Assembly: GCA_023140775.1 (NCBI GenBank)
Contig: JAGLLA010000021.1
Location: 1-34,333, forward strand
Source of the DNA: Candidatus Parcubacteria bacterium
GTDB taxonomy: Bacteria > Patescibacteriota > Minisyncoccia > JAHIHE01 > JAGLIN01
Direction of reading: 5' to 3'
DNA length: 34,333 nt
This document shows positions 30,171-34,160 of this stretch, one piece after another. A model generated the notes under the pieces. That model ran no database searches. It saw only the letters and a list, made by a program, of their open reading frames with translations, and was not told the DNA's origin. The translations under genes and the position numbers were made by a program. How positions within the stretch are numbered: the first letter of the stretch is position 1; every line of letters starts with the position of its first letter.

Positions 30171-30198
30171 TTGACAAGATCTTTTGATATGCTAAGCT
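30171..30198 (+). promoter_or_regulatory. Promoter for leader peptide / cysteine desulfidase unit
   Basis: TTGACA (30171-30176), 16-nt spacer, TGcTAAGCT extended -10; alternative TATAAT at 30213-30218. Confidence 0.55.
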
Positions 30199-30222
30199 AA
30201 ATGTAAGATAACTATAATATTT

Positions 30223-30270
30223 ATGAAAACATTTGAAAACCAAATTTGCTGTTGTTGTAGCATCCTGTAA
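30223..30270 (+). CDS. Putative cysteine leader peptide MKTFENQICCCCSIL
   Basis: ATG AAA ACA TTT GAA AAC CAA ATT TGC TGT TGT TGT AGC ATC CTG TAA; stop lies in the first attenuator hairpin. Confidence 0.7.
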   Translation: MKTFENQICCCCSIL

Positions 30271-30354
30271 ACAGGTCGGTTTTTAAGTGTTATATAAATT
30301 TTGTGAGACTAATTTAGATGATGTTTATGAACCCGCCTGTTAGGCGTGTTTTTT
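30264..30354 (+). promoter_or_regulatory. Transcription attenuator (1:2 hairpin, 2:3 antiterminator, 3:4 terminator)
   Basis: 1:2 CCTGTAAACAGG; 2:3 AACAGGTCGG (30270-30279) pairs with CCCGCCTGTT (30332-30341), 9 of 10 pairs; 3:4 CGCCT-gtt-AGGCG (30334-30346) then tg-TTTTTT. Confidence 0.7.
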
Positions 30355-30410
30355 AGTGTGTTGATGTACATTAATAATTGAATATATTAAATATATGGAA
30401 GTGGTATTAA

Positions 30411-31757
30411 ATGAGTTCTAAGGATTTTAAGAAACTTGCTGATTTGAGTGGTGAAGAAAGAAGTGACTTAGCTCTGATGATTGAAATATTTAATCATGAA
30501 GTTGTTGAAACAGCTGGATGTACAGAGGTTGGGATGGTTGCTTTTATTTCAGCAACTGCTCGTGCAGTAATAGAAGAAAAGAAGAATGGAAAAATACAGA
30601 CATCAAAGATAAAGCTCACATTAGATCCTGGAACTTTTAAGAACGGTTTTAATGCGGGTGTTCCTGGAACTGAGGGAAAAAAGGGATTTCCAATTGCGAT
30701 TACATTAGGGTTAATTTCTGGCAATAGAAAGAATGGTCTTTTAGCACTTGATAATGTTAATTCTGACTCACTGCAAAAAGCAGAGGAAATAATAAGGAAA
30801 GGAAATATAGAAATTAAATCTGAACCAAAGTGGAAGGGAGGGTTAAAAGCAAAGATCGTCATAGAATCAAATCTTGGAAATGTATCAGTATTGATAAATG
30901 GAGGACATACTAATATAACTGAAATTATAATTAATGGTGAAATAATAAAAAATGCTGATATTAGTCATAGCAATACAGGGAATTATAAGGAAGAATTAAG
31001 AAAAAAGAGTCTTGCAGATTTAATTGGGATGTGTAGATTAGTTCACGCTGGAAATCTGAATTATCATTTAATTCATGGATTTATGGTGAATGATGACCTG
31101 TCAGAAAGAGGATCTGAAATAAGTAGTACAGCACGAAATCTTAGGGAAATGGTAGAAAGTGGAATTTTGCCGGATAACATTGTTTCTGAAATCAAAATCA
31201 AGGTTGCTTCTGCAGTTCAGGCTCGGATGGAACAAGGGTTCACTGCAATGAGTAGTGGTTGTAGTGGAAATCAGGGAAATGTAGCAATTTTAGTACCAGC
31301 TTTATATGGTAATAGATTTTGTAATTTTGATCATAGTAAAGTGATCGAAAGTCTTGCACTGTCACATTTGCTCAATGCTTATGTGAAGTGTTTTACAGGA
31401 GATCTTTCTGCAATGTGTGGTTGTGCGGTTGGTGCTGGAGTTGGTGCTACAGTTGCGATAATATATCAGAACAATGGTGGTGTTTATCATATGGAAAGAG
31501 CTATTAAATATATCATTGGAACAATTGCTGGTGAATTCTGCGATGGAGCAAGTTCGGGATGTGCAGCAAAAGCTGTTATTGCTATTGATGCAATATTTCT
31601 CGCAGTTTATTTTGCCGAGTATGGAAGTAATAAAGATGAAGACTTTTGTAATATTGCACAGGGATCAGCAGAAGAAGCTATAAAAGCGATGGGAAAAATA
31701 GCGACAAAAGGAATGGAGGGTGTAGATGAAGAAATTATAAATATAATGAAAGGGTAA
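30411..31757 (+). CDS. L-cysteine desulfidase family protein (CyuA/YhaM, UPF0597)
   Basis: EVVETAGCTEVGMVAF, SSGCSGNQGNVAI, MCGCAVGAGVGAT, GEFCDGASSGCAAK; cysteines consistent with Fe-S ligands. Confidence 0.88.
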   Translation: MSSKDFKKLADLSGEERSDLALMIEIFNHEVVETAGCTEVGMVAFISATARAVIEEKKNGKIQTSKIKLTLDPGTFKNGFNAGVPGTEGKKGFPIAITLGLISGNRKNGLLALDNVNSDSLQKAEEIIRKGNIEIKSEPKWKGGLKAKIVIESNLGNVSVLINGGHTNITEIIINGEIIKNADISHSNTGNYKEELRKKSLADLIGMCRLVHAGNLNYHLIHGFMVNDDLSERGSEISSTARNLREMVESGILPDNIVSEIKIKVASAVQARMEQGFTAMSSGCSGNQGNVAILVPALYGNRFCNFDHSKVIESLALSHLLNAYVKCFTGDLSAMCGCAVGAGVGATVAIIYQNNGGVYHMERAIKYIIGTIAGEFCDGASSGCAAKAVIAIDAIFLAVYFAEYGSNKDEDFCNIAQGSAEEAIKAMGKIATKGMEGVDEEIINIMKG

Positions 31758-31793
31758 TGATATATATGGATTTATTCCAAATATATTTTTTGT

Positions 31794-31847
31794 GCCAGGA
31801 TAGTAGAGTAGCAGAGTCTCGCTGACGGTTCGATTCCGCACCCTGGC
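31794..31847 (+). ncRNA. 54-nt truncated/minimal tRNA-like sequence
   Basis: GCCAGG/CCTGGC acceptor-like ends; GGTTCGATTCC T-arm signature; too short for a full cloverleaf. Confidence 0.5.
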
Positions 31848-31937: not shown

Positions 31938-33059
31938 TTGAGAATGGAGGAATATTCAGTGAGCAAAGGTAGTAATGATGTATATATTCCAATTCTAAAT
32001 TACAACGTTACAACACTAGAAGATGAAATTAAATGGCTAAGAAGTCTTAGACATAATATGTTGGTTATGACAGCAAGGTCTGATAGAAAAATTACGAACA
32101 AATATAATTCAACGGCTGAGAAAATTCTGAAAATGCTTTGTCAGGAGAGTAGAAAATCGCTTGACGATGATTCAAAAAGAGAATTATTGAAGAAAATTGA
32201 TATTTCTATAAAGGAGAACAAGCCTATACCATTGAGTTTTACTATTGCGTTCGGATTTCGATTGCCAAATTATTTGAAATTTCAGGAACCTAGTAATCCA
32301 CCAACACTTGCCTGGCTTTATAATATATACAAACTAAGCTTAATTGCGGAGAAAGTAAAGAGAATTTATCCCGCAGGTGTTGAGTTTTTCATATTTGAAG
32401 AAGCGTATCTTATTAAAGATCTATTTAGAATTCAAGACGGAATAATTGAAAGGAATATGAAAATATTGCAACAAATGATAGTAGGTTTAGCTGCGCCAGT
32501 GAGAGTTATAGATCTAAAGAAAGAACAATTTCCAAAAAAGGAGCTAGAAGAATTAACAGTTGAGATTTCTGATGCTGATATTTTTTCAATCATGTGTTCA
32601 TTGCCAGAGATGAAAAACGAAAAAATAATGGGAATGTTATATACTGTCAGGAATAAACCATATCAAATAATAAAAAAAGAGAAAAAATATATATGGAATA
32701 AAGCAAAAGGCATTGCAAAAGTCAAAAATAGATATTTTGCTTATAGAAAAAAAATTAATCTTTTTCAAAGTATCTTAAAAAAAATGGAGGGAAATAATAT
32801 AGCTGAGCGTCTAATTGATGCTACAGTAACAGAGAAGAAAGGTCGACTGTCATTTAAATTTACCGGTGGAAGTTTATTCAATCATGGAGCAACTGTAATC
32901 GAACGAAAAGCTCAAGGCAAGAATAAATGCTATGTTGTTCCAGAATATAAGCTTAGAACAGGTTTATATAAGAATCAAAGTATAAGAAAACATGTAAAGC
33001 CAATCTATATTGAAATAGATGGTGTGTTATATATCTGGGCTTATGAGGTTCAAAATTAG
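31938..33059 (+). CDS. Possible PvcA/DIT1-like (isonitrile synthase family) protein, divergent
   Basis: IKENKPIPLSFTIAFGFRLPNYLK...LYNIYKLSLIAEKVKRIYPAGVEFFIFEEAYLIKDLF resembles the DIT1/PvcA 'I.LP.FP.KSPN..K...L..L..L...I...Y.PG' core. Confidence 0.35.
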   Translation: MRMEEYSVSKGSNDVYIPILNYNVTTLEDEIKWLRSLRHNMLVMTARSDRKITNKYNSTAEKILKMLCQESRKSLDDDSKRELLKKIDISIKENKPIPLSFTIAFGFRLPNYLKFQEPSNPPTLAWLYNIYKLSLIAEKVKRIYPAGVEFFIFEEAYLIKDLFRIQDGIIERNMKILQQMIVGLAAPVRVIDLKKEQFPKKELEELTVEISDADIFSIMCSLPEMKNEKIMGMLYTVRNKPYQIIKKEKKYIWNKAKGIAKVKNRYFAYRKKINLFQSILKKMEGNNIAERLIDATVTEKKGRLSFKFTGGSLFNHGATVIERKAQGKNKCYVVPEYKLRTGLYKNQSIRKHVKPIYIEIDGVLYIWAYEVQN

Positions 33060-33158
33060 TATGCGGTTGTTTATTAAACAGCCGTTTTATTTTTATTAAT
33101 TTTATTTAATTGACTATATCTATTTTTTCGCTATTATTTACTATATAAATATAAAAGT

Positions 33159-34160
33159 ATGATGAAATCTAGAGAACTTATATATGCGGCATGTGAAAAT
33201 AAGGAGGTGGATCGTATACCTTTGATTTTTTGGCGACATTTTCCCAGTGATGAATTATCAATTTCAAATTTTGCAAAAGCAATTATTAAATTTCAAAATA
33301 AGTTTGATTTTGATATGGTTAAAGTTACTTCTGCGAGTAATTTAATAACTGAAGCATGGGGAGGAAAACTTATTTATCGAGATGACAAAGAAGGCTCTTG
33401 TATTGGAACAAGAAAAGTGTTAGATTATCCTGTAAAAAATTACAAAGATTGGAAAAAAATTAAAAAATTAGATATATCACAAACATTACTACAAAAAGAA
33501 TTAGATGCTATTAAAATTATAAGAGAAAATATTGATAATAGTATTCCCGTAGTGTGTACAATACCTAATTCTCTGACTGTTGCTAAAATGCTATCTGGAG
33601 AGTTGTGGTTAAAAGATATGAAGGAACACGCGGAAGAATTTCATAGGGGATTGGTAATTATTACTGAGGTGATAATTGATTTTATTAAATTATATATGAA
33701 ATCAGGAGCTGAAAGTGTATTCTTTTATACTCATGCGGCTACTAACATCTTGCTAACTGAAAAAGAATATAAGACATTCGGAATCAAATATGATCTTCAA
33801 ATATTTAGTGAAGTTAAGAATTATGTAGATTTATTTATTTTTCATATGCACGGTTCTGATATTATGTTTGATTTATTGAAAGATTACCCAGTACAAGTTA
33901 TTAATTGGCATGATCGTACAACAAAACCTTCCCTAAAAGATGCTAAAAAAGTATTTCAAGGTGCAGTTCTTGGTGGAATTGATGAACATAATATTTTAAT
34001 GAAAAGAAATGTTGATGATATCAAAAAACAAGTAAGAGATACGATTCAGCAAACGAATGGAAGGGGGTTAATAATTGGTCCGGGTTGCGTTTTACCAGTT
34101 AATACTCCGGTGAAAAATATTTTGGCTGTTAAAGAAGCGATAGCTGAGTATCAAAATTAA
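33159..34160 (+). CDS. Uroporphyrinogen decarboxylase (UroD) superfamily / corrinoid methyltransferase-like protein
   Basis: VDRIPLIFWRHFP start, FIFHMHGSDIMFDLLKDYPVQVINWHDR, GAVLGGIDEHNIL, GLIIGPGCVLPVNTPVKNILAVKEA. Confidence 0.82.
   Translation: MMKSRELIYAACENKEVDRIPLIFWRHFPSDELSISNFAKAIIKFQNKFDFDMVKVTSASNLITEAWGGKLIYRDDKEGSCIGTRKVLDYPVKNYKDWKKIKKLDISQTLLQKELDAIKIIRENIDNSIPVVCTIPNSLTVAKMLSGELWLKDMKEHAEEFHRGLVIITEVIIDFIKLYMKSGAESVFFYTHAATNILLTEKEYKTFGIKYDLQIFSEVKNYVDLFIFHMHGSDIMFDLLKDYPVQVINWHDRTTKPSLKDAKKVFQGAVLGGIDEHNILMKRNVDDIKKQVRDTIQQTNGRGLIIGPGCVLPVNTPVKNILAVKEAIAEYQN

Follow-up and report, generated by a model that had tools for sequence, protein, structure and literature searches.

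A cysteine-codon leader upstream of a desulfidase gene

The stretch of DNA analyzed here (the window, 34,333 nucleotides) is the whole of one contig from a 70%-complete, ~0.64-Mb assembly of a Candidatus Parcubacteria bacterium. Toward its 3' end lies a gene for a cyuA-type L-cysteine desulfidase, preceded by a promoter, a short cysteine-rich leader ORF, alternative RNA helices and an intrinsic terminator (Table 1). An original prediction, made from the sequence without database searches, had named a promoter, a leader ORF with its Cys codons, a hairpin around the leader stop codon, an antiterminator, a terminator and a U6 tract upstream of this gene, and we located every one of these elements where it had been placed.

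Table 1. Coordinates of the leader element, cyuA and adjoining features in the window
Feature	Position	Strand	Description
Leader promoter	30171-30198	+	TTGACA 30171-30176, 16-nt spacer, extended -10 TGCTAAGCT 30190-30198
Leader ORF	30223-30270	+	MKTFENQICCCCSIL followed by a stop; 15 codons; Cys-rich in nearly all copies
Helix A (predicted protector), 5' arm	30228-30241	+	Within the leader ORF; some version possible in 13/13 copies
Cys sensor codons	30247-30258	+	TGC TGT TGT TGT; nearly every copy has 2-5 Cys codons
Small hairpin	30264-30275	+	CCTGTAAACAGG / CCTGtaaaCAGG, leader stop codon inside
Antiterminator (helix B), 5' arm	30270-30300	+	Core 30270-30284; pairing and covariation
Helix A, 3' arm	30278-30291	+	Common to the antiterminator
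Antiterminator (helix B), 3' arm	30311-30341	+	Core 30330-30341; overlaps the terminator
Region 3 pairing segment	30332-30341	+	CCCGCCTGTT
Intrinsic terminator	30334-30354	+	CGCCTgttAGGCG 30334-30346, U6 30349-30354
Direct repeat, left of cyuA	30391-30399	+	ATATATGGA, 9 bp
cyuA-type L-cysteine desulfidase	30411-31757	+	448 aa; PF03313 5e-28; PDB 9fsl 1.4e-26
Direct repeat, right of cyuA	31762-31770	+	ATATATGGA, 9 bp
Degenerate tRNA-like sequence	31794-31847	+	3' of the group-1 leader in several relatives (L023, L024, L025, L027)

The window promoter has a TG-extended -10 whose hexamer is nonetheless poor, relatives mostly having a better -10, and TTGACA is found 52-65 nt 5' of the leader ATG in all 13 aligned copies. 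No Shine-Dalgarno sequence was found at the window leader ORF. No other short ORF of the window (starting with ATG, GTG or TTG) contains even CCC, and CCCC occurred in 1 of 69,015 short ATG ORFs from 100 Markov shuffles of the window. The leader had a fold z score of -2.4; its hairpin, folded by itself, had one of -4.5. The leader ORF, with its run of codons for a single amino acid, is conserved as a coding sequence; in genome G003 its copy carries an in-frame 3-nt deletion that leaves one Cys codon less. The product of cyuA keeps the three [4Fe-4S] ligands (C336, C377 and C384) as well as C37, E39, R272, N287 and K387. It belongs to the same enzyme family as the CyuA of PDB 9fsl and of E. coli cyuPA, and desulfidase activity is predicted.

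Exclusive RNA helices and computed switching

The leader transcript can form two long, mutually exclusive helices, A and B, which have region 2 in common. In helix A, 14 bp join the beginning of the leader ORF to region 2; in helix B, the antiterminator, region 2 pairs with region 3. In an alignment of 13 leader copies the RNAalifold consensus is the antiterminator, with compensatory changes: 94.4% of its cells are standard pairs, its covariation score was reached by none of 500 shuffles, and the covariation was gone when the helix was slid by 1-3 columns. Helix A is 86% paired and its signal is also gone when slid, but its covariation is weaker than that of helix B and by itself stands weakly above the shuffle control (39/500). 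G-C to A-U changes in region 2 (GG to GA) of two copies (L043, L044) are matched in both partners. The leader thus has a covariation-supported antiterminator that excludes an intrinsic terminator. The hairpin around the stop codon, from which the original geometry had been built, is present, but the dominant competitor of the antiterminator is the 14-bp helix A and not a 4-bp CCTG/CAGG pairing, and judged from these alignments helix A is the main protector against the antiterminator.

We then placed ribosomes on the leader in a folding calculation, an equilibrium and not a kinetic one, in which the footprint was assumed to reach 15 nt to either side of the P site. The probability of the terminator in the window was ~1.0 without a ribosome, fell to 0.00, 0.51, 0.03 and 0.03 when the A site was occupied by the first, second, third and fourth Cys codon, respectively, and was 1.00 with the A site at Ser13, Ile14, Leu15 or the stop; a stall/stop switch like this appeared in 4 of 300 shuffled leaders. 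Since ribosomes on the codons preceding the Cys run likewise hold the terminator off in the calculation, the informative contrast is that between the Cys codons and the codons after them. In 27 of 31 leaders a stall at the first Cys abolished the terminator and arrival at the stop restored it, while four (L024, L028, L207, L208) showed no switch or a partial one; the terminator hairpins of L041, L042, L043 and L182 were picked by hand. In silico, the position of the ribosome on the regulatory codons decides the structure.

From these data we propose that RNA polymerase would start near 30205 at the conserved promoter and that a ribosome would presumably begin the 15-codon leader unaided by a Shine-Dalgarno sequence. 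With no ribosome, or with one past the Cys codons, pairing between regions 2 and 3 would be barred by helix A, by occupancy of region 2 or by both; the terminator would then form, and transcription would stop near 30354, as it does in the computed behavior. When Cys-tRNA is short, the calculation has the ribosome stalling on the Cys codons and covering the 5' arm of helix A, whereupon regions 2 and 3 would pair as the antiterminator and the downstream gene would be transcribed. The model thus predicts classical logic, with expression on when Cys-tRNA is short. Conservation, covariation and footprint folding all back the earlier proposal of a trp/his-type attenuator that senses through its Cys codons.

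The element resembles classical trp/his-type attenuators in its leader ORF rich in cognate codons, its exclusive antiterminator and terminator, its U-run and, in most copies, the biosynthesis gene downstream. It differs from them in that the protector is a long helix formed with the leader ORF's own start, in having no Shine-Dalgarno sequence, in occurring in Patescibacteria and in the position of the window copy before a catabolic gene. A Cys-codon uORF followed by an intrinsic terminator is also found in the uORFC-8-2 motif upstream of cysS in Rhodobacterales, for which ribosome-mediated attenuation was proposed (PMC8632094), but that motif has two tandem Cys codons, a cysS target and alphaproteobacterial hosts. 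We rejected identity with uORFC-8-2 on the different gene and lineage and the absence of an Rfam match, although Rfam may not hold uORFC-8-2. Poly-Cys leaders before mycobacterial cys operons and Bifidobacterium cbs (Seliverstov 2005, PMC1262725) likewise carry Cys codon runs near the stop upstream of cysteine genes; they have no conserved terminator hairpins, whereas the conserved U-run terminator found here places the element outside that class. The poly-Cys leader of Mycobacterium smegmatis is described as translation attenuation (Canestrari 2020, as cited in PMC13236596). A T-box or riboswitch was ruled out, as there was no Rfam match in the window or in L022/L041. Among the open-access papers searched, we found no report of leader-peptide attenuation in Patescibacteria/CPR.

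Leaders of cysteine synthase genes

A covariance model detected 18 copies at E<=5e-4, all within this order of Candidatus Paceibacterota (Patescibacteria/CPR), in 11 of the 15 family genomes and in a second family; matches at E 0.02-0.08 outside the order were taken as noise, L069 alone having been inspected. Twelve of the 18 copies lie directly upstream of cysK, whose product is a cysteine synthase (301 aa, with TIGR01136 as top match, slightly under its cut-off). The downstream gene in these copies thus acts in cysteine metabolism, as does the cysteine-degrading enzyme of the window. The original prediction had linked the element to a cysteine desulfidase. That control of such an enzyme is its characteristic role was not supported: the conserved partner is cysteine synthase, and the leaders of relatives are without cyuA. 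Alignment of orthologs, which had been suggested as a check, showed an antiterminator that covaries and a Cys run that is mostly kept. As to the concern that orthologs might lack this run, most copies retain CCC to CCCCC and two are eroded (one Cys in L027, two in L042; the G001 cysK copy reads CLCY and the G002 group-1 copy IYCWHRIL).

The remaining 6 of the 18 copies, the window copy included, we call group 1. In the window's genus, group 1 adjoins an rluF-like gene; in G003 the leader follows the same rluF-like gene, at 86% DNA identity to the window, with no cyuA. Three group-1 copies (L024, L025, L027) have no large gene directly downstream, and another (L026) precedes a 43-aa Cys-rich protein. 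Cys-rich proteins of ~43 aa ending in SC are also found 3' of group-1 leaders in G003 and G011 (L016 4914-5042; L054, reverse complement 655-786). A chimeric contig was ruled out, as three congeners have the neighboring PBP gene at 82-83% identity and synteny extends up to rluF and the leader.

Across the class, cysK is present in 34 of 387 genomes. Under a strict definition (three or more Cys, CC among them, within 270 nt), a Cys leader precedes cysK in 19 of 35 upstream regions. The corresponding figures were 277 of 7000 for shuffled upstreams and 2 of 151 for the other genes of these loci, a set from which the cyuA of the window and a misfiled cysK were left aside. A count by eye, which also admitted CC or CxC as well as two leaders lying farther away than 270 nt, put Cys-rich leaders before cysK in 27 of the 35 loci. 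These loci come from at least nine families within the class, and most of the leaders carry a terminator and a competing antiterminator. Leader peptides from outside the order, such as MDTKIVYNMESNCCCALMKSRACCCI, MKNRIIICCCACCLKLRD and MNPKKANSHNFQLNSLFCCCCNHLIAQGAAFFC, show no apparent relationship at the sequence level. Of the other 8 loci, several have a T-box-like motif (L206), a tRNA-Cys (L200) or an incomplete upstream (L201). The L206 motif, GGGGTGGAACCACGGG, had no Rfam match at E 0.05, and the tRNA-Cys (GCA) of L200 looks canonical and lies immediately 5' of cysK; both loci are from class genomes. In Synergistota MAGs (L164, L177), MLNHRTFKAIFEAVYCCCPFTF and MSIRFYSNIQAFHEAALCCCRFPF lie before cysK; a Shine-Dalgarno-like sequence is present but a U-run terminator is not evident, and this may be an independent Cys leader.

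The cyuA locus and its regulation

We found cyuA in no other of the 387 class genomes. Among 384 phylum genomes there was one other clear CyuA (G589, 38% identity), which has no leader, and one marginal match (G675, E ~1e-3); a related-locus search with a single CyuA protein as query returned no matches. With the other class genomes searched devoid of cyuA and the G589 gene without a leader, a conserved cyuA leader was ruled out. Because cyuA is absent from the other class genomes and congeners have the leader without it, we view the window element as a duplicated cysK-type attenuator beside cyuA. In G001 the DNA that flanks cyuA in the window is contiguous, each flank aligning better than any of 300 shuffles. 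This contiguity, together with the repeats that bracket the gene, indicates either a gain of cyuA by the window lineage or its loss from G001, and the gene was probably acquired horizontally.

Regarding the tRNA-like sequence beyond cyuA, ARAGORN calls a tRNA-Cys(GCA) in G001, a tRNA-Tyr(AUA) in G002 and none in the others; at 31794-31847 of the window no canonical tRNA was called, and G001 has a canonical tRNA-Cys besides. Both in the window (31938-34160) and in G001 (L052), the leader locus is followed by genes for a protein with weak similarity to PF05141 (PvcA/DIT1) and for a UroD-family methyltransferase, which may form a small pathway. The methyltransferases of the two genomes are 46% identical, and their PvcA-like proteins gave no mutual BLASTP alignment.

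Taken together, it appears very probable that the window element is a cysteine-responsive, ribosome-mediated attenuator of the family that controls cysK, in a duplicated copy with a probably horizontally acquired cyuA downstream. The window copy would be a member of the duplicated group-1 set whose first downstream gene is cyuA, missing in congeners. The model predicts cyuA expression under scarcity of Cys-tRNA, and cyuA may have its own promoter as well. A point against the attenuator reading is that, physiologically, there is little sense in turning on a catabolic desulfidase when cysteine is short. In E. coli, according to a study that mentions neither leader nor attenuation (PMC9040844), cysteine induces cyuPA through the regulator CyuR, so an attenuator would act in the reverse direction. 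The original prediction had raised this paradox and offered inverted logic as one way out; the paradox is real for cyuA, but it arises because a lone cyuA adjoins a pre-existing attenuator. That the same leader instead raises cyuA at cysteine excess would suit both the physiology of a desulfidase and the E. coli precedent, and the L026 copy does precede a Cys-rich protein, yet the geometry and computed switching match those of the cysK copies, with the terminator off on the Cys codons and on at the stop, which makes such use very unlikely.

It is quite possible, if short of an even chance, that cyuA uses its own promoter and that the leader unit is a decaying duplicate irrelevant to it. A promoter-like site (TTGATG-16-TATATT, 30361-30388) lies between the terminator and the cyuA ATG, but scores just 9/12 in AT-rich DNA, in which several such sites are expected by chance. 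The poor leader -10, the partial erosion of group-1 copies elsewhere (L027), the homologous G001 flanks without cyuA and the 9-bp repeat around the gene fit a leftover, whereas the leader ORF, Cys run, both helices and terminator of the window are intact and switch in silico. Induction at low Cys-tRNA would be useful if CyuA served sulfur transfer (for example tRNA thiolation, which CyuA of Methanococcus maripaludis supports; PMC12647591) or ran towards cysteine. All cluster and active-site residues are kept and no cysK was found in the window's 70%-complete genome; however, that genome is incomplete, the enzyme paper makes no mention of reverse activity and the cyuA-leader locus is a single instance, and we consider this role improbable. 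The group-1 copies without a large gene directly downstream would also fit an element that has a terminator but no regulatory function, either a small RNA standing on its own or a gene for a metal-binding micropeptide. We consider this extremely unlikely, as most copies precede cysK, Cys leaders built in the same way but unrelated in sequence are found before cysK across the class, and the Cys count of the peptide varies from 2 to 5, as expected of a sensor.

Within the attenuator reading, we entertain as a doubtful extension that the duplicated cysK attenuator was rewired to a second cysteine-linked locus (cyuA, the tRNA-Cys-like RNA, the weakly PvcA/DIT1-like protein and the UroD-family methyltransferase), the CyuA enzyme being switched on by Cys-tRNA shortage. 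If true, a degrading or sulfur-transferring enzyme would be on at Cys-tRNA shortage, against usual catabolic control. As far as sequence comparison tells, the leader and its RNA switch normally turn on cysteine synthesis at low cysteine, and the cyuA link is an oddity of one genome.

Patescibacteria have tiny genomes and few cultured members, and are often held to have little regulation. A covariation-supported Cys attenuator, and Cys leaders before cysK in at least nine families, suggest that some of them make cysteine and monitor their own Cys-tRNA. Such leaders would fill a gap, since they are cysteine attenuators that sit on the biosynthetic gene itself and have a proper terminator. In metatranscriptomes, they offer a testable measure of cysteine stress at the level of the gene.
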